DNA from: Incurvaria masculella
Taxonomy: Eukaryota; Arthropoda; Insecta; Lepidoptera; Incurvariidae
NCBI GenBank assembly: GCA_946894095.1
Contig: OX335646.2
Coordinates: forward strand, 19,276,077 to 19,340,076
Direction of reading: 5' to 3'
DNA length: 64,000 nt
The notes under the pieces are model-generated. The model saw nothing but the letters and a program-made list of their open reading frames with translations, was not told where the DNA came from and did not search any database. Numbering within the stretch: position 1 is the stretch's first letter; the number at the start of each line of letters is the position of its first letter. Position numbers and translations under genes: made by a program. This document shows positions 18,511 through 42,440 of this stretch, in pieces.

Positions 18511-18589
<79 letters not shown>

Positions 18590-19556
18590 TATATATATTT
18601 GATAAATGGTGTGAAAAAAAATACTCTTGATTTTTGAGAACAATGTGACAAGAAACAATCAGGAAGTAAGGAAATGACATTTAAGACGCTCTTTAAATAT
18701 ATTAATTGAGATGTGCGTACATCAAGTGGAAGCTGGTTCCACATACGCGCAGCGCTGACAGCGAAAGAATCCGTGTAGAATGAAGAACTATGTCCCGGAA
18801 TAGCAAGAAGCAAATTATTTGAGGATCTGAGAGGTAGGCCATGAGAACAGAGGAGTTCTATCCTATCAGTAAGATTTTTAGGAGCAGCTGGATTATTCAA
18901 TAAACCAAAGAGAAGGGAAAGAACATGGGTATTTCTGCGTTTACGAATGTCAAGCCAATTAAGTGAGGCGCGAAAATTAGAAATATGATCAAACTTACGC
19001 AACCCATATATATATCTTATGCAAATGTTTAGAAGTCGGTCAAGTTTGTTAAGTAGGTATTCATCTAAATCTGGATAGCAGATATCAGCATAATCAAGTA
19101 TGGGAAGCAACAAAGAGTTTACGAGCGTAATTTTAGTGTTGATAGGAATAAAGTTTTGCAAACGCTTGAGAGAGTGCATGCTACCGAAAACCTTGCGACT
19201 AACTTCACTGACTTGTTTACTCCATGATAGAGTTTCATCAATCCAGAGTCCCAGGTTTTTGACATGTTTGCTGTAAGGGACAGCAATCCCGTCAAAAACA
19301 ATGGGAGGCAGACTTTGACGATCCAACTTAGCCAACATCATGTGAGAGCCTATTATGATAGCCTGTGTTTTTGATGGATTGACTAATAATCCAAACCGAC
19401 TAGCCCAATCGAGAGCAGTATCTAAGTCAATGTTCATGAGAGAGATAGCAGATATTACATCATCAAGTCGAAAGTGCCTATACAACTGCAAGTCATCGGC
19501 GTACGAATGGAAGCGGGAAAGAAAGAGTCCAACAATGGAGTTAATAAAGACTGAGA
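18198..19556 (-). pseudogene. 5'-truncated CR1/jockey-type LINE, reverse transcriptase C-terminal half
   Basis: On the minus strand the element begins inside the reverse transcriptase, just upstream of the catalytic YADDLQLY motif (codons near 19490-19510). It is then open to about 18600 and shows typical LINE thumb and C-terminal signatures: the LDTALDWASRFGLLVNPSKT region, DYADICYPDL, RYIYGLRKFDHISNFR and SAARMWNQLPLDVR. Endonuclease, ORF1 and the front of the RT are missing, as expected for target-primed truncation. Compared with the copy at 62118-63029, the last ~20 codons (18690-18730) are frameshifted and the frame runs into a (TA)n microsatellite. The 3' end is a short ttcat repeat instead of poly(A), which fits CR1-like elements. 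It is inserted into the (GACG)n repeat. Confidence 0.8.
18515..18598. repeat. (TA)n microsatellite in the LINE 3' UTR
   Basis: About 40 uninterrupted TA units ending in taaatatatatattt. The copy of this LINE at 62118 has only a short at-rich stretch here, so the repeat probably expanded after insertion. Confidence 0.95.
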
Positions 19557-19820
19557 ATCACTTTTTTGTATGGGGCCCCCCTTTAATTTTAATTATTTTT
19601 TAATCTTACCTATTTGTTGTTATAGCGGCAAAATAAATACACACTCTGTGAAAATTTCAGCTGTCTATCTGTTACGGTTACTGAGATACAGCCCTGTGAC
19701 AGACGGACGGACGGACGGACGGACGGACGGACGGACGGACGGAAGGACGGACGTACGGACGGACAGCGGAGGCTTAGTAATAGGGTTCCGTTTTCACCCT
19801 GTGGGTACGGAACCCTAAAA
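19557..19820 (+). repeat. Right part of the (GACG)n interspersed repeat
   Basis: Continues from 18197: gtatggggcccccctttaat, ttgttgttatagcggcaa, gtgaaaatttcagctgtc, then (GACG)n at 19698-19765, then aatagggttccgtttt and gggtacggaaccctaaaaa. agggttccgtac at 18174 and gtacggaaccct here are inverted partners. Non-coding; the precise class is uncertain. Confidence 0.7.
19698..19765. repeat. (GACG)n microsatellite
   Basis: About 16 GACG units with a few substitutions near the right end (aaggacggacgtacgg). It is part of the interspersed repeat; the copy at 54418-54439 has about five units. Confidence 0.95.
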
Positions 19821-21274
19821 ATTATGTACAGGATCGGGTAGATTTTTTCTGAGGAACTTGGATCTACTGTTTTTCCCATTCTCGAGCTTTGTCACTTTTC
19901 CTATTTCCTCTAAATTAATTTAAATAATCTCACCGAAACCCGCTGCTAACTCTGACGTTGTTTGCTCATCTGCAAAATCTGCATCTGCTTCCACGATCAC
20001 TTTTAATTTTTCAATATTAGGTCCACGGGTTTGTTCTGTAGGTCAAAATTTCCAGAACGAAGAAATCGGAACCAAAATGTACCGTGATTTATTTTATAGT
20101 AGCTTCCCCATACACATAATTAATCCTTAGAGTTTTTTCTGCAACACTGGTGCCACAGTAAAACTCGTATTCGTAAATAACAATCAATTAAGTTTTCCAT
20201 ACTGTCAACAGAACAATGCCAAAGAAAAAAACAAATGGCTCGAAAACAGTGATATGTACGAACATAAATTAATCACTCAATTAACCCAAATATACAAGCC
20301 TACATTTGAATCCTTACCAAACGCCAGTTTTTTTAAATTAAAGTGTCCAGTTCGACAAAATGCCAATTTCATATGTAAAGACCTAATATTATGAACGGAC
20401 ATTCATTAATTATCTTCATGCAAAGAGGTGAAATTCAAATTTCTTCATTAAAATACACAGTCAAACGAATGGAATTGTACTAACCATCTTAGCGAGCAAC
20501 AGAATGGGACTAGCGGCAAGGTGCATGAGGTGATATTCCAAAATACACAATTCTCTCTTGCGGGTATTGTTCACAAAACAAACACAATGGGCTTAAATTA
20601 ATAATACGTTGGGCGATGACAAAGAGATTAATCTATGGAGTGCGGGCTGCGTCCCTTCAGGCAGGCGAAGGGCGGGGCTGGAGCGTTTGCGGGGGCGAAC
20701 TGGAGAGGTTGTGTGAAGGGAACCGACCACAGTAACTCAATTAGTTGGCATTTTGTTTTTTGCGAGATCACTTTGAATGCATTATTATAAATTAATTTTA
20801 ATGTATTTATATTCAATAACAATGAAACGTTTTTTTTGCAAAAGACTTTTGGTGCCACAAATGGAGATCAAAAATAAAAAAAATGGGATTTATTCACATA
20901 TAATACAAAACTGAAAAAAAAAATCATTTATTCGTTTATTTGCTTTCATAAGGTTTGTATACACTAATGGATTCCATGTACGAGATGCTCGATTACCAGA
21001 GACGAAGAAGAATTGACAGGAAACTTCGCCTGGAGTTATAATACAAAAATATATTATAGTCTTAGCTTTTATAAAACATTATGTCAATTATTTTAAATGC
21101 TAACACATACATACCTAGAAGTTTCAGCTGAAAAAATATTCATACACTCTGCATTAATATTTTGGCTTGTTTATTGATTTGAGCAAGATTAAAATGAGGT
21201 TAACAAACTGCACGTCCGAGAATTATATAAAAAACAAAAGAAGCCAGCTATGAAAAAAAAAGAATCAAAGACGC
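19821..21274. other. No gene recognised
   Basis: AT-rich flank of the giant-LTR element. 20640-20710 is GC-rich (ggcgaagggcggggctgg) without a supported ORF. 20990-21060 weakly resembles 32830-32880. The last four bases, acgc, are the target duplication of the element that follows. Confidence 0.45.
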
Positions 21275-22127
21275 TGTAATGAATCCACCCTCCTACAATA
21301 ATCTTTTTTCGGTCGGACTCTTACATAAATGGCAACGTAATCATCTGAGGATCCTACATTTCCGTAGACGTTCAGATTCAAGCTAAATCGTCAAATTATA
21401 TTTCATAGAGTTTATTATTTATTTCACATGGTCATAATTAATTTAGAAAACCTTTTATCGGTAGATAATGTCATTGTAAAGATGTACATGTCAGATTTGG
21501 TTCATGAAATTTACTTTCAATGAATCGTCATGTGCACTTATCAGATTCATTGAATTCTGAATATACAGTGTCGGACTCCAAAGCTTGTGATTTTGGATGC
21601 TCGCTTAAGGGATCCCTTAGACTCTAAAAGAGCCTCTCAATGGCCATCGACACTCACGTATATCCGACACTGATATATGTAATCGATTCAAACCGTATTG
21701 AATGGGTCCTAATTCTTATCTAACCGATCAATGTCGTAAACTTTAGATATTGTTCAATCATTTATTTAAAATTGGAAGTTGTGGGCCCACATTAGAAAGT
21801 TATAAGTATTTCTTAATAATGATAATACATTTATCCACGACTGTTTTGAGTGCAACAAACAACCCAGAGTAATAGGAAGTCAATTATTCGAATCGCGGTG
21901 ACCTGTAACGCCTTAGTTCACCAATAGACAAACTGACATATTGAAGGTTATTATACGTACTGATGATGAGTATTTCCGGCATATTTATATGAATGGTTAG
22001 CTTATATACTGATCATAAAATGTGTTTTAACATCAGTTCAGCCAACATAATAGATTAAGGAGAATAGGCTGCATAAACACTGTAATCAGGGCTAAATGCG
22101 CAATAATAGCAAATCAATGTAGTAATA

Positions 22128-22480
22128 AAACCCATTAAATCTCTTTTAAAGGCTCAATACACAGTAAGAGAAGATAATAGATGAATTAGTCCTTATAAGA
22201 CCACCTTACCAAATGCTTGCTCCATGGCTCAATACACAGTGTCAGCAAACCATTTGGCAATATATTTTAAAACCCATTAAAACTCTTTTAAAGGCTCAAT
22301 ACACAGTAAGAGATGATAATAGATCAGTCTTTATTAGACAACCTTACCAATTGCTTGTTCCATGGCTCAATACACAGTGTCAGCAACCCATTTGGCAATA
22401 TATTTTAAAACCCATTAAATCTCTTTTAAAGGCTCAGTACACAGTAAGAGAAGATAATAGATTGATTAGTCTTTACTAGA
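22128..22480. repeat. ~140-bp tandem repeat inside the LTR, 2.5 units
   Basis: Units start with aaacccattaaa (about 22128, 22269, 22408) and contain ggctcaatacacagtaagag and ccatggctcaatacacag. The same array is at 36704-37056 in the other LTR. An 88-codon open frame across it only reflects the repeat. Confidence 0.9.
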
Positions 22481-24608
22481 TTTATTATATTATATTAAAG
22501 TTGATACGGCATTTAAACAACCACTCATAGAAATAGAACATTTACATTCGTGTAAATATTTTAATCCGACTGCAGTACATTGAGTACTGCATCCAATGCA
22601 AAAATATGTCAAAACGTTCAACGATGACAGTAACATTATCTTGGTATAGTAATTTTATATTCATTTCCAACCAGCTCTGGAACGAGGTTCTCAGTTTAGA
22701 TGGTATTCATATCACCCCTACTCATCTCTAAAATCAAAGCACCATTCAATACTAAGCTGACCTGTAGTTAGGTCTCGAATGTTGATGAATTATATACCTA
22801 ACCCATCCGTTTGTACCTTGTGTATTACAACAACGGCTCTATTCCCAAAACCCTGAATACATACCGCATAAGATGTACACATATATATTTGAAGTCTGAC
22901 CAACTTCGGTATGGCCCGGTGTTTGTAGGCTTAATAACATTAATGATAATTTGTAAACAATGGAAGTTATACTTTGTATTTATGTAAACCCTCATCGACA
23001 CTAGGATAGTCAAAATATGATCTCCCCTTTTTATATTTTTATTCTGTTTTTAAAGAGAATAGGAAACTTCAACAATAGATCAAGGCAATTGCAATTTAAA
23101 TAAGGTAGCACCGAAATGTAACCAAAACTCAAGAAAGCAACAATGTATTAGATGTGATTTTTCCGAGTCTAAAATCCCCTTAATTCGTCCAACATTCATA
23201 CTACCTTCTTGAACGACTGTTCGCCACGTTAAACTCATAGAAATCCGTAAACATATACGGTTACTTATATCTAGCTCACGGTTAATCATTCATCACATAA
23301 ATTTACTTATTTTTAACTACCTAACTCGGATTAATCACAACATGATTATTAAGTAAAACAATAAACAATCTGATCTATAGTAAATTTAACTTATTTCAGC
23401 ACTACCTTTTATAATTCGGTGTATCGGCATCACATGGGTAGACTGATCCTATCAAAAATAATCTGGTTTCTATGTATCTTGTTTCATGCGATTCATTTGG
23501 GTATTGTAGGCAGGCTACAAAAACATAAATCTATGTAAATGTAAAGCAATATGCTTCCTATAACAGAAACAGTCAGTAACTGTAAATATGGTTTATTCTT
23601 CTATTCAATTAGGTGTAAACAAACATTCATTATGAATGTCTAAGGTGAAAATAAGTTAAATTTATCTGGATGAAAACTTAGTGCTGTACCTATTTAGGTG
23701 CAGCCAGGCCTAGGATGGTAGACGCACAAGCTGGTGAACCCTTCAAAGATAATAGCTTGTCCAACACCAACATGTATACACCATTACGCCTTCTTCCAAA
23801 AAGGATTGGCTGATATGATGTATTTTAAGTTATGTGCATCTTCCAATCGCAAATTTACTTATATCTAACTAATCTCTGCCTCAATTACTCCGAATGCCAA
23901 AACAAGATAACTTCCGAACCTTTCAGTCAGCGTCTACACTACATCAACCGTACCTCACAATCTTACAATTTCAAATATCAAAATAATGTATTCATATAAC
24001 TTTGAAGCAAATTTAATTATTTTGAATCCATTCTAACATTAACAAATCAACATTTCAAAAGCTATGAGGTTTGGTTGACTTTTTTGGGTGGGAATACCTT
24101 AATTAACAATACTGGAAGCATTTGAATTTGAAAAGATAACTAACTGCTAATGAATTCTCACAAGCTTCGTCTAGTATCATCCAGTTGATCACATGTTTCT
24201 AGTCTTAACTAATTACTTCATGAAAGTTCGAAACGAATCCAGATTAATAAAACAAGCTAAAAACCCACTCACGTCTCCCGAATGCTCGATACACAACGTC
24301 TTAAATCTAAGGTTACGTTAATAATGCCTTGTCTATTGTTATAACCAATTAAATATAGTCACAATATAATATCCGTTAGCATTTAATCAACGAAACAAAT
24401 GCTTCCTTTCAATGTTAAACTTTGGCCAAACCTTAAATAAATGGTTTAATTCAATAACTTCCAATTAAATAGTGCTTTGATTTAGAAAGAAATAATAAAG
24501 AGTAATAATCTACTCACGTAATGCTGGCACAGTCTCACACTCGCGATAATAATGAAGGCTGCACGGACTGCGGCGGCGGCACGGACGTGGCGGCTGCACT
24601 GGAAGGAG

Positions 24609-24671
24609 ACGTCTTGCGCAGGCGGCTACCGAGGCACGAATGCTCGTTGCGCGTCGCCGCGTAAGGGTATA
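24609..24671 (-). promoter_or_regulatory. Core promoter in the 3' LTR (minus strand)
   Basis: Identical to the element described at 39203-39265: TATA-like TTTATAC with TATA at 24671-24668, initiator A at about 24641, DPE AGACGT at 24614-24609. In this LTR copy, transcription would run leftward out of the element into the flanking DNA. Confidence 0.5.
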
Positions 24672-24990
24672 AACAAACAACGCAAATACCTACGCAGGAG
24701 CGTTGACGTAAACAAAGCATCTATGTTGACCTATGCATGTATTAACAACTAATGTAGCGTTATCGCCATAATCACCAAAACATTATTATTTCTGTGGAGT
24801 TCAATATCTCTAATAACTTTTATGAAATGCTTTAGAATAATTTATGTTTTATTGTTTACTGGGTAAGGCAATATCGAAAGCATTAAAGATGTATTTATTT
24901 CAATACAAACTAGTTTCTGTATTCGAAAGATATTATCTCTTCTGCTGTAAATGATTGAATATTTATTTTGAATAGGTTGGTCCCATTACA

Positions 24991-25004
24991 ATCGCCCCGT
25001 TACC
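24991..25004 (-). promoter_or_regulatory. Probable polypurine tract before the 3' LTR
   Basis: On the minus strand GGTAACGGGGCGAT directly precedes the TGTAATG start of the 3' LTR. It is purine-rich and lies where the plus-strand primer tract belongs, but is interrupted by pyrimidines, so the assignment rests mostly on position. Confidence 0.45.
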
Positions 25005-25048
25005 AGGTCGGACAGAAGTCCATATGACTCTCTGTTTGCCCTGGTAAC
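24999..25048. other. 9-bp stem hairpin next to the 3' LTR
   Basis: gttaccagg (24999-25007) and cctggtaac (25040-25048) are perfect inverted partners separated by 32 nt, overlapping the probable polypurine tract. A shorter ggtaac also sits next to the other LTR at 35840-35845. Confidence 0.5.
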
Positions 25049-25454
25049 AACTTTTCCTGTAGTTATCCTTTTTCCTTTCTATTATTTATTTCCTTGTTAC
25101 AAAATTTCACAACATTCATTTCTGACAAAGGTTTTTTTTTTTTCATGGTAAATATATGATTTTATTAGTTCAATAAAACTCCTTGTTATCATCTAAATAT
25201 TTAGTTTTAATTAAGTGTAATAAACATTGAGTACACATTAACTTATTATTATAATAATGCACCAATATCTCAACTAGGGCTTTATAATTCTAAGAATATA
25301 ATCTAATTGACCATTCATTATTTTTTTCCTTTATTCCCTCCTTTTGTTTTTACAATACCACACTTATATATTTTTAATGTCACTAAATGTATTCCGAAAT
25401 ACTCTTGAATTTTGGACACTGAAATACTAGGTCCTTAAAATAACTATGTTATTA
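25049..25454. other. Non-coding 3' internal region of the giant element
   Basis: AT-rich sequence between the nested LINE and the LTR. No ORF, env-like gene or RNA gene seen. Confidence 0.6.
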
Positions 25455-27364
25455 ATTATATATATATTTTTCTTCATCTCGTTTATTTGAGAGTCGTCGG
25501 CTATAATGATGTTCAGCCGGAAACAATCTGCTCCCGCCCAGGAACCTCCCGGGAAAAAGAGCAGATGTTATTTTCCTTCATTCCTCTTCTTCTGCATTGA
25601 TTTCGCCTAAATATCCACACATAAATTTGGTCATGATCATAGTGGTATCAACAGCCGCTTGTCGTTGGAGGATTTCAATTTTAATTTCTGCTTCCAAATC
25701 TCGTATATAATTATGAACGGTCTTGCAAATGATTCCAGTGTTTCCGATGACTATAGGTACAATTTTGCTGCTTGTGTTCCAAAGTCTTTGAATTTCTATT
25801 TTCAATGCGTGATATTTGGACAGTTTTTCAATTTCTTTTTTTGTGTTATTGTAATCTGATGGCACCGTGACGTCTATTAAATAGGTTATGTTATTTAATT
25901 TGTTGGTATAAATTAGATCCGGTCGATTATTTGGGAGGGCATAATCTGTTGTTACCGGTATTTCCCATAATATTTTTGCACTTTCATTTTCGATGACATG
26001 TGGTTCATTTAAAGGACATTTCCACCAAAATTTTGTAGTTTCAAAATTGTGTTTTTTTCTCAAACACCAATATATATATTTTACAAGTTTATTATGTCTT
26101 TTGAGGTAAAGTGGTTGGACCAAAATCTTGCAGCCTGATATAATATGCATAACGGTTTCGTCTTTCTCGTGGCACAATCTACATTTTCCATCGGAGTCCT
26201 TTTTTAAAATATCTCGTTCAAATTGTCGAGTGATTATAGCCTGGTCTTGAATGGCAAAAATTTGTGATTCCAGTTTAGGTGTGATTGGTTTTTTTTTTAA
26301 CCACGTAAAAGATTTCATGTAGTCAATATTGGGGCATAAAAGAACTTGTCGCACAATTTGACCGTGCAAAGGCTTGATTTTCCATTTTTCTTTCATTTGA
26401 TTTATCTGACATTTTAAAATTTTAGTGTCGTTTTCAGTAGGTTCATCTAAATTCAATTCATAGCGAAATTGGGCACCTTCTTTTTGAATACTGTGTATGG
26501 CTTTTTCGTAGTCGCTTAATTGTATTGCTCGTATGATGATATCACATTCATCTTGTAAATATTTTTCAAATTTAATACTTAATCGTTTGTAGAGGTTTTC
26601 TATGTTCAATAACCCTCTTCCTCCCTCGTGTATTGGTAAGTACAATCGTTCCACATCTGCTTTTTGTTGATGCGTTTTGTAAATATTCAATATTTTTCTA
26701 GTTTTGATATCAATTTTTTGCAACTCTTTTATATTATAATTAATTACATTGAATGTATAAATCAGGACTGGTACTGCGTAACTATTTATTGCTCTTACTA
26801 TGTTACGAGCATTTAATTTAGATTGAAGTATTCTTCTTAACCGGGTGAAATATTCTTTTTTTCTACACAATTTTATGTTTTTATGATCAATTTCTCCATT
26901 TTCATGTATCCCTAAATATTTATACTTTTCATTTATTTTAAGACATTCTATCTCATTTCCATCTAAAAGAATGTGGTTTTCACCATAGCATTGATTCATT
27001 TTTCCACACTTCATTTCAAGAACACTACATTTGTTTAGACCAAATTCCATGCCGATATTTCTCGTGTATATTTCTACAGTATCAATCAAAATTGCCATTT
27101 CATGTTTATTTTTGGCATACAGTTTGATGTCATCCATATACATGAGGTGATTAAATAACATTCCACTTTTCAATTTATATCCAGTTCTCGCGTAATTTTT
27201 CAGCATTATCGATAACGGATTTAGACTGAGGCAAAATAGTAATGGTGACATGGAGTCTCCTTGGTAAATACCTCTATTGATTTTAATTGGACTTGTTGTA
27301 ACTACTGCATGAGCGCCCATAGCTGACATGATCGTTTGCCATTGTTTCATAGATTTTTCAAGAA

Positions 27365-27370
<6 letters not shown>
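25455..27370 (-). mobile_element. 5'-truncated R2/R4/Dong-type LINE nested in the Gypsy element
   Basis: The minus-strand LINE carries the 590-codon ORF at 25578-27350 plus a short 3' UTR. It is flanked by AT microsatellites on both sides: about 31 TA units at its 5' side (27371-27433) and a shorter ta run with attaatta at its 3' side (25451-25467). R4/Dong elements of the restriction-like-endonuclease group are known to insert in TAA/TA-type repeats, which fits. It lies in the same orientation as pol, between pol and the 3' LTR. Confidence 0.7.
25578..27350 (-). CDS. Reverse transcriptase with C-terminal restriction-like endonuclease, N-truncated
   Basis: An uninterrupted 590-codon frame. 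Residues 27-40 (GIYQGDSMSPLLFC) are RT motif B, residues 71-78 (YMDDIKLY) the catalytic motif C, and residues 143-148 (KYKYLG) the following motif E region. Residues 390-407 form a C-x2-C-x8-H-x4-C zinc knuckle, followed by the endonuclease core RPD at 476-478 and LIDVTVP at 491-497, then the KY..LK..E helix near 512-520. This RT-knuckle-RLE order is characteristic of R2, R4/Dong and NeSL-group LINEs, which nick a target and prime reverse transcription there. RT motifs before B, including the first catalytic Asp, and all N-terminal DNA-binding motifs are missing. The listed Met is therefore only the first ATG after truncation, and the protein cannot be an active RT by itself. Confidence 0.85.
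   Translation of the reverse strand: MKQWQTIMSAMGAHAVVTTSPIKINRGIYQGDSMSPLLFCLSLNPLSIMLKNYARTGYKLKSGMLFNHLMYMDDIKLYAKNKHEMAILIDTVEIYTRNIGMEFGLNKCSVLEMKCGKMNQCYGENHILLDGNEIECLKINEKYKYLGIHENGEIDHKNIKLCRKKEYFTRLRRILQSKLNARNIVRAINSYAVPVLIYTFNVINYNIKELQKIDIKTRKILNIYKTHQQKADVERLYLPIHEGGRGLLNIENLYKRLSIKFEKYLQDECDIIIRAIQLSDYEKAIHSIQKEGAQFRYELNLDEPTENDTKILKCQINQMKEKWKIKPLHGQIVRQVLLCPNIDYMKSFTWLKKKPITPKLESQIFAIQDQAIITRQFERDILKKDSDGKCRLCHEKDETVMHIISGCKILVQPLYLKRHNKLVKYIYWCLRKKHNFETTKFWWKCPLNEPHVIENESAKILWEIPVTTDYALPNNRPDLIYTNKLNNITYLIDVTVPSDYNNTKKEIEKLSKYHALKIEIQRLWNTSSKIVPIVIGNTGIICKTVHNYIRDLEAEIKIEILQRQAAVDTTMIMTKFMCGYLGEINAEEEE

Positions 27371-27433
<63 letters not shown>
27371..27433. repeat. (TA)n microsatellite at the LINE 5' junction
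   Basis: About 31 TA units between the truncated LINE and the 3' end of pol. Probably the target tract into which the LINE inserted, later expanded. Confidence 0.95.
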
Positions 27434-27435
<2 letters not shown>

Positions 27436-27517
27436 CCTACCAGTCTCAGTCTTAGGGCAATGATCTTATCATGTTATCAATTGCCTGTTATTAAATGGGT
27501 TGTTATCAATGGTAACT

Positions 27518-29611
27518 TTATGTGTAATATTTACTTAAATGTATCGCATTTATGTTACCCTTCATATGTTTCATTTGTACATCCATTAGCGTGTAGACAT
27601 TTGGGAATGGTATTGCTACAACAATATATGGTCCATCATATAATAATGCAAACTTTTTAGTTATCTTCTTTTGAGAATCTGACTTTGTATACCTTCGTAC
27701 CTTTACTAAATCACCAATATTAAATTCTATGGTTCGATGTGTCCTATCATATCTATCGGAACGATAATTTGCTGCCTTGTTTAGGTTTTGTCTCACTTGT
27801 TCCCAAATATCTTGTTTTTTGTTGTGATCAGTACTAAAACCTATCGATTTGTCCAGTTGCAGACCTGTCGATTTACCAAATAATATTTCATTAGGTGTAT
27901 AACCTGTACTCATGTGTTTAGTGTTATTGTAAAGGATTTCTATATCTTCTACTAAGTCTGCCCAACCCTTATGATTTTTGTGACAATAAGTTCTAAATAT
28001 TCTGCCTAATTCTTTATTTACCCTTTCTGTGGTATTTGGACGAGGATTCCTAACAGTGGTGTGTATTTTGTTTATTCCGAATTTATTTAAAGTTTCACCC
28101 CAAACCTTTCCTATAAATTGTGATCCATTATCAGTCATAACAGCTTTTGGTTGTATGTTTTTCATAAAGTCCCGAAGACGTCCTGCCACCGCTTGTGCTG
28201 TAGCCTTTCGAATTGCATACAGTCTTACAAATTTACTGAATGAGTCTTGTATTACTAATATGTACGTCAACCCAAAACGGCCCACAGGAAGAGGTCCATA
28301 TAGATCGCACATTACTAAATCTCCAATGTTATTTACAATTATAGATTGACACTTCCCTACAAATTTGACGTTATTTGATTTAGCCAATTGACATAGAGAA
28401 CAAGCCCTAATTATTTGTTTAACGCGTTTGGACATATTTTTCCAGAAGAATCTAACTTTCAAAAGTTCCACTACCTTATAAATACCAAGGTGCCCCATTT
28501 CTAGATGGACCTGCATCACAATATCCTTGTGCAAACTTTCAGGTAACAATAACAGTTTATTCGAATCCGGCGCAGGAAAGTAGTAGACAATTTCATTTAT
28601 TAATTTACATTTACTAGCCATTTTTTTTATGACCTTATAATCTTCATTACCTTCTGAATAACTCGCATCAATTATGCAACCCTTGATTTTAGCAATAAGA
28701 TGGTCTGCATTTTGATATTGTTTTATTTCCGTTAGTTTCCTTAGCGTTATCTGGTCCGTTTTGTATTGTAAAAGTGTGATATCGGGGCACCAATTTTTGT
28801 TCTCTTGTACCTCAATAGATTTTGTCGGGTACCTTGACAGAACATCGGCTACTATGTTCTCACAGCCCTTGATGTGTTGAATTTTATAATCAAATTGCTC
28901 TAAATATAACACCCATCGGGTAACTCTATTGTTTTGTAGGTTCCATGTTTTAACAAAAAGAATGGCCTTATGATCTGTTCTTATTACAAGTTTAGCTCCT
29001 CGTAGGAACGTTTCGAATTTTCGAACACAATAAATGATTGCCCAAAGTTCTTGTTCAGTGACAGTCCAACGTAATTCAGATCCTTTCAAAGATCTACTGC
29101 AATATGCTAATACGCGATGGTCTCCTTCTTGTCCTTCCTGATAAAGTTCGCCTGCTATTCCTACCCCAGAGCTGTCGGTCTGAAGGAAGTATGGTTGGTT
29201 AATATCTGCATGATGAAGAATGACAGTAGAGATAAATTTAGACTTCATTTCATCAAATGCTAATTGTTCATTATTTCCCCAATGCCATCGATTGTCCTTT
29301 TTTAATAATGCACACAAAGGAATGATGACGTCACTGTAATGATCAACAAATTTCCTGTAGTAATTGCAAAGCCCCAAAAAGGCACGTAACTGCTTAATTT
29401 TTTTAGGTACTGGGAAATTTTGTATTGACGCTATTTTGTCAGGATCCGTTCGAATTCCGTTGGTGGAAATGATGTGACCTAACATCTTTACTTCCTTCAT
29501 TAAAAACTGACACTTCTCTAAATTGCATGTCAATTCGGCTTGTTTAAGACGTTCAAATATTATATTCAAATGGTCGATATGATCTTCTAATGATCCATTG
29601 GTCAACACAGC
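27518..29611 (-). pseudogene. pol, second part: RT end, RNase H, integrase (giant Gypsy element)
   Basis: The frame is the same as that of 29612-30958 and is separated from it only by a TAA stop at 29612-29614. Counting from the first codon after GCT (29608), the RT thumb occupies residues 1-100 (KMLGHIIS, LRAFLGLCNYYRKF). RNase H starts at about 138 with catalytic TDSSG (Asp145) and TDHK at 211. The integrase zinc domain has His368, His373, Cys403 and Cys406. The catalytic core has Asp435, Asp493 and Glu528, a 34-residue D-E gap close to the usual 35. The C-terminal domain ends at residue 696. All catalytic residues expected for RNase H and integrase are present. There is no ATG-led start here, so expression needs read-through of the stop or an internal start. 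Confidence 0.88.
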
Positions 29612-30958
29612 TTAGTCATCAAGGTAATTGACACAAAAATCCCTTGTATCTTCACCTAAAATTATTCCCATTGCTCTACTGAAGCTCCCGACTGACGTTT
29701 TTAATCCTTGAGGTAATACACAATAAGTAAATGATTTCCCACCGAAAGTGAATCCAGTGTACTTTCTGCTTTCTTCTGACAATGGTATTTGGAAATAAGC
29801 ATTATTAAGATCTATTGTTGAGATAAATTTAACCCCATTAAATCGATGCAGAACATCAGCCTGCAGAGGAGGCGCTTCAGAGTCAGATTCCATATTTTTA
29901 TTTAGTTCTCTAGCATCTAACAACACTCGGACTGATCCATCCTTTTTTAAGGTAAATGTTAACGGACTACTATAGGGAGTAGCTTCTCGCTTGATAATGC
30001 CTAATTCTTCCATTTCTTTTAATTTCTCACCTACCTTTTCTCTATACGCATAAGGCACTGGGTATGAACGCTTAATAAAAGGCCTAAGATCCGTCATTCT
30101 AATTTTGTGTGTATATATTTTAGTCCTGCCCAATCTTTTCGTAAACAATTCTTGGTGTTTGAGTAAAGACTCTCGTAATAACTTTTGTTCCGACTCCTTT
30201 AGGTGACCCAATTTTGATTTTACCTGTTCATTAAAGTTAATGTCAAACTCTGCGGTATCTATTATCATAAGTTGTTGTGATTTTAACTTGCAAGAGTCGC
30301 CCTTTAGTGGTATATTAATATCCTTATTACTGACAGTAAACTGTAGTTTACTTATTCCTCGACAACAGGTTATACTTGCTTTATTCTCCACTAACCAATC
30401 AAACCCTAAAATCATTGGCCTGATCAAATTCGGTACAACTAAAAACCGTGTCTCTACAATAAAAGATCCAAAATTTAAAGGTACCATGACGACCTTGTTA
30501 ATTTTTGTACTTTTTTGGCCAACAGCTCCTCGTATTTGCAATGATTTAATAGGTATGGCGGGTATTAATATATCTGATTTTGAACATAATTCGTTGAGAA
30601 AACCTTCAGCTATGCATGTGATTTGACTGCCAGTATCAATTAGACAAGTGCTTTGTGAATCGTATACAGTTACTGTTACTATCGGAGATACTAAACTGTC
30701 ATTTTCACCTTCACCTTCAGTGTCAAACATCGATAGCACGGTAAGCTTATCTTGGTTTGTGTGTACATTTTGTTCGCCTATATATTTTTTTGAATTGATT
30801 TGTAACGCGTCAACTACTTGATTTAATGAGTCTTTCTGAGCTTCTGTCTTGTAACCTAACCCATAGTTATTTATTTGTTCTCTTATTTTTATTGGCTTAA
30901 GTATACCATTCGAACCTTTTCCAAGTGGGTGGCCTGGTTGCCAACCACACCTTAACAT
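29612..30958 (-). CDS. pol, first part: G-patch, protease, RT to YLDD (giant Gypsy element)
   Basis: A 448-codon frame. Residues 5-37 form a G-patch-like segment (GWQPGHPLGKG ... YGLGYK). The aspartic protease follows with LIDTGSQ (Asp108) and its partner ILGFDWL at 183-189. RT fingers and palm run from about 290: LLDARELNK at 346-354, motif A TIDLNNAYFQIPL at 381-393, LPQGLKTS at 415-422, and YLDD at 445-448. The frame ends there with TAA, in the middle of the RT. The ATG at 30958 is preceded two codons upstream by an in-frame TGA, so pol is not an overlapping frameshift extension of gag. It starts 26 nt after the gag stop in another frame. G-patch domains bind RNA-helicase or nucleic-acid partners and occur beside the protease in some retroviruses. 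Confidence 0.88.
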   Translation of the reverse strand: MLRCGWQPGHPLGKGSNGILKPIKIREQINNYGLGYKTEAQKDSLNQVVDALQINSKKYIGEQNVHTNQDKLTVLSMFDTEGEGENDSLVSPIVTVTVYDSQSTCLIDTGSQITCIAEGFLNELCSKSDILIPAIPIKSLQIRGAVGQKSTKINKVVMVPLNFGSFIVETRFLVVPNLIRPMILGFDWLVENKASITCCRGISKLQFTVSNKDINIPLKGDSCKLKSQQLMIIDTAEFDINFNEQVKSKLGHLKESEQKLLRESLLKHQELFTKRLGRTKIYTHKIRMTDLRPFIKRSYPVPYAYREKVGEKLKEMEELGIIKREATPYSSPLTFTLKKDGSVRVLLDARELNKNMESDSEAPPLQADVLHRFNGVKFISTIDLNNAYFQIPLSEESRKYTGFTFGGKSFTYCVLPQGLKTSVGSFSRAMGIILGEDTRDFCVNYLDD

Positions 30959-30984
30959 TATATTCAGAGCTTTATATGGAATCC

Positions 30985-32025
30985 CTAATTCTGAGACTGG
31001 CTCGGGTCCTCCAACCTCGGGAAGTTTGGCACACTGTTTACACTTGAACTCACTGCACTAACACTCAATCTTGGATCTACCTCCACTACGTTTGCGGATC
31101 TTGGTGAATCGGTGGTCAAGTCTACTGCATTTGCCCGGTTGGACTGTCTCCAATTCCTACTGCGCCAATTATTGTTACGCGTCTGTGGGTAGGTGGGAAT
31201 TGTTGTCATTGGGACAGTGGGAGTGTTATCCAATCTTCGTAAAAATTCAGCTGCCTCCCTTATGGTTCCATTTGACCTTGAAGCCCAAAGAACTATCACC
31301 TCCCTTGGAAAATGTCTTATAACATCCGATATCAACTGGTCTTCCGGAAGCTCATGCTTAAGCATCTTGGCTTGGCTAACCAAATACATAAAGTGCCCAA
31401 ACATCGTAGGGTGTTTTGATCGGTCCCATTGTCCATGGGTTATTTCCCTTCGCAGAGCGCCTTGCTCACTCTCACCCCAGTAGGTCGCCAAAAAATCTTT
31501 CTCAAAGTCATCTAACGTCAGCCAACAGGATTTAGAGATTCGAGCCCAACATTTAGCTTCTCCGTCTAGACATTCTAGAATAATGTCCAATTCACGTCCT
31601 TGTCCGGTTGACCTACGCAGGAACCCTTTTAAGCTCTCGATAAAATCTACTGGGTGTATTTTCCCCTTTCCCGTGAATTTTGGTTTTTCGTGGTGCGACA
31701 AAATAGTGACTACGGCCGGTCGGTCGGTCACAATTGACGGGGTAACGATTGCACCTGTAGTTGAAGCGCTGATAGTGGGTTGGTCAATCGCGATTGAAGG
31801 TGTGTTGTTTGCAGAAGTAGTTGGTATATCAGTGATAAGAGTATTGTCGTGAGATTCCGATCTCTTTATATGTTCTTCCAATAAGGAAACTTTTCTGCTG
31901 ATTGGTTGCATATGACGTTTTATCATAAGATTTATAGCATATAAAGTATTCGGTTTTTTTTTTACAACACCTTTTCCTTTTGTTGCACTCGTTTTTTCGA
32001 GAGCGTTTGCTTTTGGACGAACCAT
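30985..32025 (-). CDS. gag of the giant Gypsy element
   Basis: 346 codons from ATG at 32025 to TAG. The N-terminus is basic (KGKGVVKKK), followed by a Ser/Thr/Ile-rich linker (residues 55-110). The capsid-like region at about 112-275 contains KFTGKGKIHPVDFIESLK, CLDGEAKCWARI, FEKDFLATYWGESEQ and the FGHFMYLVSQA helix, the pattern of Ty3/Gypsy retrotransposon gag. The C-terminus is Arg/Asn-rich (NNNWRSRNWRQ), a likely nucleic-acid-binding tail; there is no CCHC zinc knuckle. The frame is intact. A candidate splice acceptor lies 20 nt before the ATG. The protein should form the cytoplasmic particle that packages the element RNA. Confidence 0.8.
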   Translation of the reverse strand: MVRPKANALEKTSATKGKGVVKKKPNTLYAINLMIKRHMQPISRKVSLLEEHIKRSESHDNTLITDIPTTSANNTPSIAIDQPTISASTTGAIVTPSIVTDRPAVVTILSHHEKPKFTGKGKIHPVDFIESLKGFLRRSTGQGRELDIILECLDGEAKCWARISKSCWLTLDDFEKDFLATYWGESEQGALRREITHGQWDRSKHPTMFGHFMYLVSQAKMLKHELPEDQLISDVIRHFPREVIVLWASRSNGTIREAAEFLRRLDNTPTVPMTTIPTYPQTRNNNWRSRNWRQSNRANAVDLTTDSPRSANVVEVDPRLSVSAVSSSVNSVPNFPRLEDPSQSQN

Positions 32026-32044
32026 TTTGTAATTGGTGATTTAC

Positions 32045-32050
32045 CCTGCG
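32045..32050 (-). promoter_or_regulatory. Candidate splice acceptor just upstream of gag
   Basis: Minus strand: a T-rich stretch then ttaattcgcag|GGTAAATC, with the AG at 32047-32046 and the gag ATG 20 nt downstream. Paired with the donor after the 5' LTR promoter it would remove 7066 nt. Predicted from consensus only. Confidence 0.4.
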
Positions 32051-33074
32051 AATTAATCGTACAAGAACACTTAGGTTTTGCATGAACCAGTAACTATATT
32101 TATATTAAATGGTTAGGGACAAATGAATTTTGAAATAAATTAAAACTTTCGTCAAAAACAGTGGACGAGAGGGACAAGCAATTTTCAAAGAAAATAACCA
32201 TCTTCAAATTCTATTTAACATATTGTATGAACCCTTGTTTGTGTTCGGCCCTTTTTTTAAAATGTCATCTAAATTGGTTCAAAAATAATTACGACCATTC
32301 TAATTAAGTTCATATAATTATTATGATCGATATAGCGTGTGGTAATAATAAGGAAAAAAAAATAACCAATAATTACATTTTACCACTCCAAGTTTAGTTA
32401 TGAGTAATGAGAGAGTTTGATTTTTTAATTTAAATTTATATTATGTTACAACTATAAAATTCCTAACACATATTACTCGCAGGATGTAATACCTACGACC
32501 GCAACTACGCGACGATTTATACCGTAACCCAAACCCTTGAATTTAAACTATAATTAGGCTTTATAAGAAAAATATTTAGCAAATGACAGATGCACTTCAC
32601 ATTCAATGTATAAAATGATCTGTATAAATTCGGTAAGTAAGGTTTGCGAGATGAGTTTAAAGGACCAGTTCCACAGTAGTAAGTTTAGAGAATTTGAATG
32701 CGGCCAAAGTACATACTGACGAGAATTGAGAATGGTTTAGACATGAAGGACACATTTATTTATTAATTTATTTTCTATATACACACTGCTTAATTTGTCT
32801 TTTTAACAGACGGCTTGATCATTATGAAAAAAGAAGAACCAACACAAAACTTCGCTGGGAGTCAAAATACAAATACCTTTCTATTCTTATGGCTAAACAA
32901 ATAATGATATGACACCATCCCTCTGAATGTAATGCAATATAATAAATAAGAGTGCTGTGATTTTAGAGCAACCTTAATAATTAAGTATAATTAACGAAAG
33001 AAAGACGAAACAAATTTATCTATTGGAAGTAAGGGAAACGTGCTGTTTGACGTGGCCTAAAATAACATAACAGT

Positions 33075-33985
33075 GTCCCTCAAAGATCCGTTCTTGGCCC
33101 GCTATTATTTTTAATTTTTATTAATGATCTTCCTAGTAATTTAACTAAATGTGATGTTTATGATACCAGCTGTACATCCTGGAGAAAAACATTACAGGAA
33201 TTACACGAAAGCCTTAAGGTAACACTACATGAATTATCGTACTGGTTTGAGTGTAATAATTTTAAACCAAACAAAAGTAAAAGTCAATATATAACTTATA
33301 GAAGGAAAATATTAATTTAAATAAAAATGAAGATATATTTACTTTTCCATAAAAAGAACGGAACTATGATATTTTTAGGGGTGGTTGTAGACAGTAACCT
33401 AAATTGGAAATAGCACACGGAAAATGTTTCTAAAAAAAAATTAGCAAGTGCATGTTACGCCCTTAAATCCCTAAAGAAAACATCTACTATTAAAACCCTA
33501 AAATTAGTATATTTTTCTAATATTGAATCGATAATAAGATACGGCCTTGAAGTCTGGGGAGCAAGCTCGGGTGTAGCAAAAGTATTAAAATTACAGAAAA
33601 AGGCCATTAGAATCATCAATGGCTCCAAATGGGATACGACCTGTAGACCACTGTTTAGAGAATTGAAATATGTACTGTGATTAACTTATATATCTTTACT
33701 GTGAGCACTATAACTATATACTTTTATAAATCTCCCTAATCTGCCCAAACAAGGCGTCCAGTTGTACTATTCCTTAAGAGACAGAAATAAGCTTGAACTA
33801 ACGTAAGCAAACAGCAAAATAAAGAAACAAAGTTCTATCTACCAATCAATTAACATATTTAGTAGGCTACCGAATGTAAAAGAGACTGCAGATTCAACTA
33901 ACGTATTTAGAAATAAACTTAAAGAATTCCTATTAGAAAATCCTTTCTACTCTCTCAGTGAATATTTCAATTATAATAAATAAAG
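33075..33985 (+). pseudogene. Decayed CR1/jockey-type LINE reverse transcriptase fragment
   Basis: Plus-strand frames, with stops and shifts, give VPQRSVLGPLLFLIFINDLP (RT motif B), then a damaged catalytic segment near 33150-33170 (DVYDTSC, with two residues of YADD apparently lost). These are followed by ELSYWFECNNFKPNKSKSQY, IFLGVVVDSNLNWK, YALKSLKKTSTIKTLKLVYF, RYGLEVWGASSG and a C-terminal NVFRNKLKEFLLENPFYSL. The order matches a CR1/jockey-like LINE from mid-RT to the end. It lies in the gag leader, antisense to the host element, so it was captured or inserted there. Inactive. Confidence 0.75.
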
Positions 33986-34068
33986 ATAATTTAGAACCTT
34001 AAATATAAGAAATAGTATTATTTAGTTGTGCTTATTGTATGTAAAAATTTATTGGTCGGCTTATGTGA

Positions 34069-34149
34069 TGTGTGTACCTATTTGTAATGAAATGTTGTGT
34101 GTACCTATTTATAATGAAATGTTGTGTGTACCTATTTATAATGAAATAT
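34069..34149. repeat. 27-bp minisatellite, three units
   Basis: Three units of tgtgtgtacctattt(g/a)taatgaaat spaced by 27 bp, in the leader of the giant element. Confidence 0.85.
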
Positions 34150-34434
34150 TTATATTCCTGCATGGTAATGATTCCGAAACAATAAACAATATTAGGCTGA
34201 CAAAGCATTTCGTAAAGATCAAATAACTAGCAGATGTAAATACAGCATGTAAGAAGATATACCTATCTGCAAAATATGTAAGTGAATGAAGTATGCTGCA
34301 ATTATAACGAATGGCTTTCCACCATCTCCTCTTCGGAGAAGTAGCTTGATAGTATATACTTGTAAAAATAGTAGATAAATTAAATGAATCAAGATACTAT
34401 ATGGTTTTGTATTTCAAAGTGTGTAGGGAACCAT

Positions 34435-35340
34435 AACTAAAACAATACAAGCATTTATTCCTATTTACGACGATGAACATGCAACTTTTCTGTCGAATCT
34501 CGCCCCGAGATCAACAGATACATTATTAAATAGAATCTTAGATGACAGTTGGGCTTGCGAAAATGTTTTTGTAACTGAACATAACACTTAATACCACACC
34601 TATTGTCATTACATTAGTGTAATACACCTCGTAGAAAGTAGGTACTATGCCAAGACTTCTCCACTATGTTGAACTAGATATAAAACACGGACAAGGTTCA
34701 TTGTCACTTTGACCAGCTAAAACAATACATACATTTATTTCAGTTACAACGATAAATGTGCAACTTTTCTCTGATAAAATATTGTCGAATCTCGCCCCGA
34801 GATTGACAGATATATTATTGTATAGAATCATTTAAACTCAATGAATCTATCGCTACATTCAGTATACAAAATTAGGTTTGCCAAATGTTTTCCGTCACTT
34901 GACAAGCACAGTTAGTACCACACCTACTTTTATGAAATTAGTCTAACACCTTACAGAACAATGTAGGTGCCATACTAGGACCTTCCTTGTGAAAAATACA
35001 CTACATTGAACTGAATAGAAAAGACGGACAATTGTCATTGCCGTTGCTACCAGCTAAAACAACACACAAATTTACTTATTCTGTGACAAAACTTATCGAA
35101 TGTCGCCCCGAGATCGACTTATACATTATTAAATACAATCTATAAATGTATCTTTATAATCAGTATCCAACATAACAGTTGACCCGCTAAGTGTTTCTGT
35201 ACCTGAACATGACCAGCTAATATCATATTCACTGTCATGATACCAGTTCAACACACCACATGAACACTAGGTGACATGTAAGGATCCGCCCTATAATTTA
35301 CAACTACATTGAACTACCGCTTCGACCATCGCTCATTCAA
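34435..35340. repeat. Tandem array of ~280-335-bp SINE-bearing units in the leader
   Basis: Three diverged units start near 34435, 34717 and 35053 with ctaaaacaa(t/c)aca. Each contains tcgccccgagat followed by acattattaaata, and each ends in a SINE-like 3' module (taccacacctac..., then acggacaa...). A fourth tcgccccgaaatcaac occurs at 35581. Divergence between units is far greater than between the LTRs, so the array is older than this insertion. Confidence 0.75.
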
Positions 35341-38300
35341 AGCGATGTCAACAACCTGGCATAATCAACCCTACCACCTAGTAAATAGAAAGGGGACCTA
35401 CAGTTTTAATTGAGGTCGACAATAAGTCACCTCTAACTACATGCACGTTAAGAAATTCAGTAGGACCTCTGAACTTCTATTACATTCCTTAACCCTTGCA
35501 ACAAAATGGAGTAATACGAAAAGTTATTACTCTATGACTCGATTTAAAAGTAATTAATAATTTTAAGGAAAGAGATACATCTCGCCCCGAAATCAACATT
35601 AGTCTTCACGCCCCGTGAGACTTACCTACTCTTCGATTTCAAGCCAATAATTACAGTTGTATCAATATGAAATAAATCGAAATGGAATTCAATCTTATCA
35701 AATTATAAAAAGTGAGAACCATTTATGTTAATAGTTTGAATTTAAATATAATTTTAATTCGTATATTAATTATCATATATTATTATTATTGTATATTATA
35801 TGTTCTTAATATAATAAACACTACCTATCCTGGTCACTTTGGTAACAAATTGTAATGAATCCACTCTCCTACAATAATCTTTTTTCGGTCGGACTCTTAC
35901 ATAAATGGCAACGTAATCATCTGAGGATCCTACATTTCCGTAGACGTTCAGATTCAAGCTAAATCGTCAAATTATATTTCATAGAGTTTATTATTTATTT
36001 CACATGGTCATAATTAATTTAGAAAACCTTTTATCGGTAGATAATGTCATTGTAAAGATGTACATGTCAGATTTGGTTCATGAAATTTACTTTCAATGAA
36101 TCGTCATGTGCACTTATCAGATTCATTGAATTCTGAATATACAGTGTCGGACTCCAAAGCTTGTGATTTTGGATGCTCGCTTAAGGGATCCCTTAGACTC
36201 TAAAAGAGCCTCTCAATGGCCATCGACACTCACGTATATCCGACACTGATATATGTAATCGATTCAAACCGTATTGAATGGGTCCTAATTCTTATCTAAC
36301 CGATCAATGTCGTAAACTTTAGATATTGTTCAATCATTTATTTAAAATTGGAAGTTGTGGGCCCACATTAGAAAGTTATAAGTATTTCTTAATAATGATA
36401 ATACATTTATCCACGACTGTTTTGAGTGCAACAAACAACCCAGAGTAATAGGAAGTCAATTATTCGAATCGCGGTGACCTGTAACGCCTTAGTTCACCAA
36501 TAGACAAACTGACATATTGAAGGTTATTATACGTACTGATGATGAGTATTTCCGGCATATTTATATGAATGGTTAGCTTATATACTGATCATAAAATGTG
36601 TTTTAACATCAGTTCAGCCAACATAATAGATTAAGGAGAATAGGCTGCATAAACACTGTAATCAGGGCTAAATGCGCAATAATAGCAAATCAATGTAGTA
36701 ATAAAACCCATTAAATCTCTTTTAAAGGCTCAATACACAGTAAGAGAAGATAATAGATGAATTAGTCCTTATAAGACCACCTTACCAAATGCTTGCTCCA
36801 TGGCTCAATACACAGTGTCAGCAAACCATTTGGCAATATATTTTAAAACCCATTAAAACTCTTTTAAAGGCTCAATACACAGTAAGAGATGATAATAGAT
36901 CAGTCTTTATTAGACAACCTTACCAATTGCTTGTTCCATGGCTCAATACACAGTGTCAGCAACCCATTTGGCAATATATTTTAAAACCCATTAAATCTCT
37001 TTTAAAGGCTCAGTACACAGTAAGAGAAGATAATAGATTGATTAGTCTTTACTAGATTTATTATATTATATTAAAGTTGATACGGCATTTAAACAACCAC
37101 TCATAGAAATAGAACATTTACATTCGTGTAAATATTTTAATCCGACTGCAGTACATTGAGTACTGCATCCAATGCAAAAATATGTCAAAACGTTCAACGA
37201 TGACAGTAACATTATCTTGGTATAGTAATTTTATATTCATTTCCAACCAGCTCTGGAACGAGGTTCTCAGTTTAGATGGTATTCATATCACCCCTACTCA
37301 TCTCTAAAATCAAAGCACCATTCAATACTAAGCTGACCTGTAGTTAGGTCTCGAATGTTGATGAATTATATACCTAACCCATCCGTTTGTACCTTGTGTA
37401 TTACAACAACGGCTCTATTCCCAAAACCCTGAATACATACCGCATAAGATGTACACATATATATTTGAAGTCTGACCAACTTCGGTATGGCCCGGTGTTT
37501 GTAGGCTTAATAACATTAATGATAATTTGTAAACAATGGAAGTTATACTTTGTATTTATGTAAACCCTCATCGACACTAGGATAGTCAAAATATGATCTC
37601 CCCTTTTTATATTTTTATTCTGTTTTTAAAGAGAATAGGAAACTTCAACAATAGATCAAGGCAATTGCAATTTAAATAAGGTAGCACCGAAATGTAACCA
37701 AAACTCAAGAAAGCAACAATGTATTAGATGTGATTTTTCCGAGTCTAAAATCCCCTTAATTCGTCCAACATTCATACTACCTTCTTGAACGACTGTTCGC
37801 CACGTTAAACTCATAGAAATCCGTAAACATATACGGTTACTTATATCTAGCTCACGGTTAAACATTCATCACATAAATTTACTTATTTTTAACTACCTAA
37901 CTCGGATTAATCACAACATGATTATTAAGTAAAACAATAAACAATCTGATCTATAGTAAATTTAACTTATTTCAGCACTACCTTTTATAATTCGGTGTAT
38001 CGGCATCACATGGGTAGACTGATCCTATCAAAAATAATCTGGTTTCTATGTATCTTGTTTCATGCGATTCATTTGGGTATTGTAGGCAGGCTACAAAAAC
38101 ATAAATCTATGTAAATGTAAAGCAATATGCTTCCTATAACAGAAACAGTCAGTAACTGTAAATATGGTTTATTCTTCTATTCAATTAGGTGTAAACAAAC
38201 ATTCATTATGAATGTCTAAGGTGAAAATAAGTTAAATTTATCTGGATGAAAACTTAGTGCTGTACCTATTTAGGTGCAGCCAGGCCTAGGATGGTAGACG

Positions 38301-39105
38301 CACAAGCTGGTGAACCCTTCAAAGATAATAGCTTGTCCAACACCAACATGTATACACCATTACGCCTTCTTCCAAAAAGGATTGGCTGATATGATGTATT
38401 TTAAGTTATGTGCATCTTCCAATCGCAAATTTACTTATATCTAACTAATCTCTGCCTCAATTACTCCGAATGCCAAAACAAGATAACTTCCGAACCTTTC
38501 AGTCAGCGTCTACACTACATCAACCGTACCTCACAATCTTACAATTTCAAATATCAAAATAATGTATTCATATAACTTTGAAGCAAATTTAATTATTTTG
38601 AATCCATTCTAACATTAACAAATCAACATTTCAAAAGCTATGAGGTTTGGTTGACTTTTTTGGGTGGGAATACCTTAATTAACAATACTGGAAGCATTTA
38701 GACTCCACGTTGATTTTGAATTTGAAAAGATAACTAACTGCTAATGAATTCTCACAAGCTTCGTCTAGTATCATCCAGTTGATCACATGTTTCTAGTCTT
38801 AACTAATTACTTCATGAAAGTTCGAAACGAATCCAGATTAATAAAACAAGCTAAAAACCCACTCACGTCTCCCGAATGCTCGATACACAACGTCTTAAAT
38901 CTAAGGTTACGTTAATAATGCCTTGTCTATTGTTATAACCAATTAAATATAGTCACAATATAATATCCGTTAGCATTTAATCAACGAAACAAATGCTTCC
39001 TTTCAATGTTAAACTTTGGCCAAACCTTAAATAAATGGTTTAATTCAATAACTTCCAATTAAATAGTGCTTTGATTTAGAAAGAAATAATAAAGAGTAAT
39101 AATCT

Positions 39106-39112
39106 ACTCACG
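39106..39112 (-). promoter_or_regulatory. Consensus splice donor downstream of the LTR promoter
   Basis: On the minus strand gcattac|GTGAGTAG: GTGAGT occupies 39111-39106, about 124 nt downstream of the predicted start. It matches the donor consensus exactly. The copy in the other LTR is at 24517-24512. Confidence 0.5.
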
Positions 39113-39202
39113 TAATGCTGGCACAGTCTCACACTCGCGATAATAATGAAGGCTGCACGGACTGCGGCGGCGGCACGGACGTGGCGGCTGCACTGGAAGG
39201 AG

Positions 39203-39265
39203 ACGTCTTGCGCAGGCGGCTACCGAGGCACGAATGCTCGTTGCGCGTCGCCGCGTAAGGGTATA
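39203..39265 (-). promoter_or_regulatory. Core promoter of the giant element (TATA, initiator, DPE)
   Basis: Minus strand: a TATA-like TTTATAC with its TATA at 39265-39262 is 30 nt before an initiator-like gcATTCG (A+1 at 39235). The downstream promoter element AGACGT starts exactly at +28 (39208-39203). It sits in a GC-rich island (39129-39314) inside an AT-rich LTR. The spacing of all three elements matches insect RNA polymerase II core promoters and agrees with the direction of gag-pol. Confidence 0.6.
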
Positions 39266-39584
39266 AACAAACAACGCAAATACCTACGCAGGAGCGTTGA
39301 CGTAAACAAAGCATCTATGTTGACCTATGCATGTATTAACAACTAATGTAGCGTTATCGCCATAATCACCAAAACATTATTATTTCTGTGGAGTTCAATA
39401 TCTCTAATAACTTTTATGAAATGCTTTAGAATAATTTATGTTTTATTGTTTACTGGGTAAGGCAATATCGAAAGCATTAAAGATGTATTTATTTCAATAC
39501 AAACTAGTTTCTGTATTCGAAAGATATTATCTCTTCTGCTGTAAATGATTGAATATTTATTTTGAATAGGTTGGTCCCATTACA

Positions 39585-42298: not shown

Positions 42299-42357
42299 TG
42301 TTGTATAAGTTATGTCAAATACCCTGAATGACAGTTCAATAAATGAATCACACAACA
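42299..42357 (+). repeat. 5' LTR, 59 bp
   Basis: TGTTGTATAAG...ACACAACA, identical base for base to 46685-46743. It contains a polyadenylation hexamer AATAAA at 42338-42343. Confidence 0.95.
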
Positions 42358-42368: not shown

Positions 42369-42440
42369 TTTTTTCTCAAATGAAAATTTGTGAAGATTTG
42401 TGTATTTTGGGCGCATGAGATGAGCTAAAATATAAAAAAA

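Follow-up and report, generated by a model that had tools for sequence, protein, structure and literature searches.

The window examined here, a stretch of 64,000 nucleotides of the Incurvaria masculella genome (C6:19276077-19340076, in an assembly of 552 Mb and 31 contigs), contains at 21275-39584 an 18.3-kb retrotransposon with long terminal repeats (LTRs), coding on the minus strand. The element belongs to a family with two subtypes: A, which bears gag-pol and of which four copies were found, and N, which is gene-less, more numerous, and has the same LTRs and leader. Because the coding strand is minus, the repeat at 35851-39584 is the 5' LTR, and in element sense the features are the following.

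39585-39588: ACGC, target-site duplication on one side
35851-39584, minus strand: 5' LTR, 3734 bp
35821-35850, minus strand: primer-site region, ATT and then TGTTACCAAAGTGACCAGGAT
32026-35850, minus strand: non-coding leader of 3.8 kb containing diverged repeats (~300 bp each) that carry the motif TCGGGGCGA
30985-32025, minus strand: gag, 346 aa, ATG at 32025, named by position
27518-31057, minus strand: pol, in frame -1 to gag and overlapping it
30848-30970, minus strand: G-patch domain (Pfam), residues 30-70 of the frame from 31057, preceding the protease
30371-30685, minus strand: aspartic protease (Pfam)
29468-29947, minus strand: reverse transcriptase, interrupted by a stop (Pfam)
28892-29206, minus strand: RNase H (Pfam)
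28043-28543, minus strand: integrase zinc-binding and core domains (Pfam), with a match to the Ty3 Gag-Pol structure
24991-25052, minus strand: terminal hairpin and conserved CGGGGCGAT, adjoining the 3' LTR at the position of the polypurine tract (PPT)
21275-24990, minus strand: 3' LTR, 3716 bp
21271-21274: ACGC, target-site duplication on the other side

The two LTRs align end to end with only 2 substitutions and one 18-bp gap. Both start with TGTAATG and finish with CATTACA, so that the lengths, inverted ends and ACGC duplication given in an earlier note on this DNA are borne out by alignment and by the flanks, as is the recent movement it deduced from near-identical LTRs. A rate of 5.6e-9 per site per year, taken from work on Parnassius (PMC10713551) and so from another species than the host, would make 2 differences in 3716 sites equivalent to ~48,000 years. 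Within each LTR lies a minisatellite of ~138 bp in 2.4 copies (22126-22462 and 36702-37038). Pfam places the domains in the order G-patch, aspartic protease, reverse transcriptase, RNase H and integrase, of which the last four follow the order of Ty3/Gypsy elements, and the piece from reverse transcriptase to integrase matches the solved Ty3 Gag-Pol structure. LTRs with TG..CA ends and a short target duplication were found in all nine pairs read, including that of the window, each with a 4-bp duplication and 0-4 substitutions. The element is thus confirmed as a genuine, recently moved retrotransposon of Ty3/Gypsy type. The earlier description of a gag-pol element with a long non-coding leader stands, corrected for orientation, a stop within pol and an R2-like insertion.

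This LTR occurs at a minimum of 41 places in the genome (40 of 150 candidates scored). Thirty-two full-length LTRs were read with their flanks, comprising 8 pairs, 11 solo LTRs and 5 single ends of other copies. The search for further copies proposed in the earlier note found 4-bp duplications at 8 of 8 further pairs (substitutions 0, 1, 2, 1, 0, 4, 1 and 0), and the 11 solo LTRs have them too. Full gag-pol DNA, in contrast, is present at just four places (all 15 candidates scored); these four stretches are 99-100% alike, and the remaining 11 matches are short stretches of 66-67% identity. The start of the leader was found at 37 places or more (40 of 3137 candidates scored), and the LTR end was read beside it in 29 copies, while in 2 more the coordinates place the two side by side. 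All four gag-pol copies are among the 37 leader places, which leaves 33 without a gag-pol match. The internal regions of eight of these were read: they are 3.9-5.0 kb long, contain no gag-pol and no frame of 150 codons, keep the leader to position ~3280-3296 of the window's internal region, and in 8/8 cases retain a 3' end beside the LTR that is 85-87% identical to the window over 60 letters. Gene-less copies with the same LTRs, their own duplications and young LTR pairs are what is expected of the non-autonomous member of an autonomous/non-autonomous pair. One gag-pol copy (C6:19786310-19806229) lies ~0.5 Mb from that of the window; its LTRs are identical (0/3726), and its leader is lengthened by an insert of ~3.1 kb.

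Compared with 26 N-type LTRs (paired, solo and single), the LTR of the window differs by 8.5% at positions 1-550 and by 0.97% at 551-3734, whereas it differs from that of another A copy at 2 of 545 sites in the first part and at 34 of 3181 in the rest. Across R-U5 (repeat and unique 5' region) the window is therefore 1.07% from another A copy and 0.97% from N; on these figures U3 (unique 3' region) carries the subtype and R-U5 does not. Among the 26 N LTRs the step in divergence falls at 442-457 in 1, at ~468-481 in 12 and at 535-604 in 13. Accordingly, a tree of U3 splits A from N with a support of 100, whereas in a tree of R-U5 the LTR pair of the window groups with three N LTRs and a copy designated L022 (support 97). 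L022 is itself mixed, with an A-type LTR (99.4% to the window) on an N-type 3' end; of its 5' LTR, the last 1.1 kb was matched in the 3.9-kb stretch read. Identity also varies along the leader. Over internal positions 1-1000, 1061-1800, 1800-2800 and 2800-3296 its identity between the window and N is 87-96, 85-86, 96-97 and 76-78%, respectively, and that between the window and the gag-pol copy L017 is 96.0, 86.6, 96.5 and 98.9%. We read the divergence step, the trees, the leader identities and the mixed copy as the probable outcome of recombination between co-packaged A and N RNAs, in which the subtype would stay with the 3' end and U3.

The signals around the leader are largely common to both subtypes. 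After the LTR, 27 of the 29 copies read, including all four with gag-pol, have ATT and TGTTACCAAAGTGACCAGGAT or near variants, and the other two have ATT and TGGTGCCGTGACCAGGAT, a form that would match the 3' end of an insect tRNA-His with CCA. The last 11 letters of the primer region of the window agree with the tRNA-His-like site of those two copies and its first letters differ; no TGG occurs within the first 60 nt after the 5' LTR of the window. Priming from the 5' sequence of the element itself, on the model of Tf1, was considered and rejected, since no complement there to the first 20 nt of the primer region exceeds 8 nt. Hairpins of the leader were considered as a possible packaging signal: two of four repeat units in the window fold better than shuffled sequences (z -4.9 and -3.7) and two do not (z 0.0 and -0.6). 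At the other end, 10 of the last 15 letters before the 3' LTR are purines, and a run of 15/15 purines lies ~75-90 nt away. The terminal hairpin has two forms, one in gag-pol copies and the other in gene-less copies and L022, which differ by one compensatory pair change and are both followed by CGGGGCGAT; with two forms only, the covariation is slight.

As for expression, a putative start-site block, AGCATTCGTGCCTCGG, is kept in 34 of 34 LTRs downstream of TTGTTTATACC, and three predicted splice sites are relevant to the route from LTR to gag.

39106-39111, minus strand: candidate splice donor GTGAGT at LTR position 474, prediction only
35620-35625, minus strand: stronger candidate splice donor GTAAGT in the leader (internal position 226), prediction only
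32046-32047, minus strand: candidate splice acceptor AG, 20 nt upstream of the gag start codon, prediction only

The donor at 474 is kept in 26/26 N-type LTRs and that of the leader in 10/10 internal regions read; because the strongest donor sits in the leader and not at LTR position 474, the splice model includes both. The acceptor is present in the three gag-pol copies read there, and its region is missing from the gene-less copies read. The stretch from LTR position 341 to the gag start codon contains 133 ATGs, all of them beyond the donor at 474. A conserved donor with an acceptor peculiar to A fits splicing of the gene-bearing RNA only, a pattern also described for BARE1, but not BARE2, of barley (PMC3735527). 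From these sequence comparisons we infer trans-mobilisation, co-packaging, a start site and splicing, as follows. Transcription probably starts ~350 bp into the LTR, which would give a short U3 and an R-U5 of ~3.4 kb. The A RNA would probably be spliced to a point just before gag to yield the gag-pol mRNA, and unspliced RNA would serve as the genome. N would be copied in trans by A proteins, and A and N RNAs may be packaged together and recombine during reverse transcription. The parts kept by N (LTRs, ~3.3 kb of leader, hairpin and PPT position) would then represent the cis unit for packaging, priming and integration.

We regard this model as a whole (an A/N pair, trans-copying, co-packaging, recombination, a start at ~350 bp, and splicing) as quite probable, although several observations weigh against parts of it. 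The other 25 gene-less copies are called so from the lack of a gag-pol match; the primer site does not start with TGG in 27/29 copies; of the 34 LTRs, only 21 carry TTGTTTATACC exactly; a weight matrix puts the donor at 474 in 15th place among 474 GT sites, behind the leader donor; and 12% of shuffles also yield a first exon free of ATGs. That the LTRs reflect a segmental duplication or an assembly artefact around a gag-pol fragment, the alternative raised by the earlier note itself, is extremely improbable, and nothing was found in its favour. LTRs without gag-pol, which it had named as grounds for rejecting the element, are indeed common in the genome, but because all four gag-pol copies found adjoin this LTR they point to gene-less partners and leave the element standing. 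Neither chance nor artefact fits the distinct 4-bp duplications, found at 8/8 further pairs as well as at that of the window and at the 11 solo LTRs, on many contigs.

A weightier alternative is that R-U5 is alike in A and N through strong selective constraint rather than exchange; gene conversion could have the same effect. The 3.2-kb conserved stretch could contain regulatory or structural elements, and an approximately unbiased (AU) test on R-U5 does not reject A as one clade (p 0.08). However, the R-U5 of the window lies no closer to another A copy than to N, the step position varies among N lineages and L022 is a mixed copy, which makes constraint an unlikely explanation. N might instead be mobilised by another Gypsy family, the four A copies having arisen when an N-type backbone recently acquired gag-pol, as the near-identity of the four gag-pol stretches beside more variable N LTRs, together with other G-patch-clade pol genes in the genome (41-46% identity), would allow. 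But the ends, primer surroundings and terminal hairpin of A and N match closely, R-U5 and leader are common to both, and the U3 of A and its leader beyond ~2800 have diverged as far as old sister lineages would; we consider this scenario improbable. Within the A/N model, a more specific proposal can be made only tentatively and is open to considerable doubt: ~3.2 kb of R-U5 with up to ~2.8 kb of leader may form a shared cis-module that moves freely between A and N, each keeping its own 3' end and U3, and 27 of the 29 copies, in which the first letters of the primer site are replaced, may start reverse transcription from a primer of another kind than a tRNA 3' end.

In the coding region, gag is named by position because Pfam gave no match for it at E values up to 5; its predicted fold had a mean predicted local distance difference test score of 40.5 and was not used. 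A pattern search of the gag/pol overlap yielded no canonical frameshift heptamer. The pol of the window has an in-frame TAA at 29612-29614, directly after YLDD; both flanking pieces can be aligned with five relatives without a second break, and other copies in the genome have open pol frames.

Protein searches matched pol proteins of Parnassius mnemosyne, Plutella, Tuta, Phthorimaea and Arctia, together with many unnamed contigs; at greater distance, the matches included other animals as well as plants. Osvaldo, Ulysses and Woot were not among the named matches. In a FastTree tree of 88 of 120 listed matches and two window proteins, the element branches deeply next to 33 other rows (support 100 for the set of 34), with a best identity of 57%. 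As far as sequence searches show, it would thus represent a new family. All 31 G-patch-listed rows of the tree fall inside one 66-row clade (support 99), compared with 0 of the 24 other rows, and the named members of the clade are moths and butterflies. In a Pfam scan of 24 proteins, G-patch preceded the protease in 8/8 that had been selected as G-patch-listed; of six clade members not so listed, four passed the cut-off, one was weak and one had none. Outside the clade it was found in 0 of 10 scanned; many predicted proteins outside the clade start near the protease, so that this is not proof. Some plant Gypsy elements are also reported to have a G-patch (PMC9289625), and betaretroviruses have an RNA-binding G-patch C-terminal to the protease (PMC1224870). 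The likeness to the latter is that G-patch adjoins a retroviral-type protease, and the difference is that here it is N-terminal and in an insect Ty3/Gypsy clade. We found no report of G-patch before the protease in insects in the literature covered, which did not extend to subscription journals. Elsewhere in the host genome, four pol genes of a 46%-identical relative lie head to tail (C16:8588956, 8601072, 8613189 and 8625305) at a spacing of exactly 12,116-12,117 bp, suggestive of a single retrotransposon repeated in tandem.

Two retroposon pieces lie within the element.

25465-27370, minus strand: 5'-truncated R2-like retroposon inserted in (TA)n, making up ~1.9 kb of the element
33066-33980, plus strand: decayed antisense non-LTR reverse-transcriptase piece in the leader, recognised by eye

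The open reading frame following pol (25.6-27.5 kb) is the C-terminal half of the R2-like element, presumably of R4/Dong type, and the site is empty in both other gag-pol copies read there. An env gene was thereby ruled out for this frame, unlike the insect errantiviruses, in which env follows pol. The antisense piece has 6 stops in its main frame over 915 bp. Because only ~0.25 substitutions would be expected there since insertion of the element at the LTR rate, the piece was inherited with it, and it is present, partially in some, in all 10 other copies in which the stretch was read. No relative was found among viral contigs, Rfam gave no match, and a tRNA scan of the window found none.

The window also contains a second Ty3/Gypsy element (42299-46743), presumably related to the Mag lineage, with LTRs of only 59 bp (TGTTG...CAACA), a 5-bp duplication CTTGG, TGGTGTCAGAA after the 5' LTR, AAAAAGGGGCA before the 3' LTR and gag-pol split into two frames. 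Thus, both extremes of LTR length, 59 bp and 3.7 kb, occur in one window. A 971-bp direct repeat, 99.9% identical (51766-52736 and 63030-64000, cut by the window end), possibly represents the ends of another element. Nine copies of AACCT, an insect telomere-type repeat, lie at 61547-61591, internal to the contig. Related non-LTR retroposon pieces at 18496-19557, adjoining an (AT)n run at 18511-18598, and at 62531-63032 are 84.8% identical over 494 bp.

The earlier view that the LTR length is exceptional for insect Gypsy elements does not hold. Woot of Tribolium reportedly has LTRs of ~3.6 kb. LTRs of the Osvaldo lineage measure 997-2055 bp in the text, and 2137 bp in a table, of a Culex survey (PMC3286476), and both this lineage and Woot are insect Ty3/Gypsy elements with long LTRs and 4-bp duplications (PMC3286476, PMC3391268). 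The present LTRs of 3.7 kb share the lineage's length of ~1-2 kb or more, but the tRNA-Lys primer site, invariant in what the survey describes, is replaced here by a tRNA-His-like one in 2/29 copies and an altered one in 27/29. The likeness to Ogre suggested before is also weak. Ogre/Tat plant elements have an extra open reading frame before gag, whereas the longest Met-started sense frame in the present leader is 58 aa. Long LTRs are an already known kind in insect Gypsy elements; what is surprising here is that most copies lack genes, that a 5' module appears to be shared, and that G-patch is displaced.

To our knowledge, autonomous/non-autonomous LTR pairs are known chiefly from plants. LARD and Dasheng/RIRE2-type plant elements are large and gene-less, have the LTRs of a gene-bearing partner and form mixed copies; here the host is an insect, and the LTRs are several times longer than is usual for such pairs. 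In barley, the parasitic Gag-less BARE2 outnumbers the gag-bearing BARE1 (PMC3735527). The likeness is that the Gag-less majority keeps the cis signals, without the splice signals used by the gag-bearing partner. However, BARE is a Copia element of a plant, BARE2 is reported as deleted only for the start of gag whereas N lacks gag and pol altogether, and packaging was shown for BARE, whereas here recombination would point to it.

An insect A/N pair in several dozen copies would let N reveal which parts are indispensable for the copying of an LTR retrotransposon. Furthermore, the divergence step between A and N may serve as a natural experiment on strand transfer, and it suggests that R-U5 can make up most of a very long LTR.

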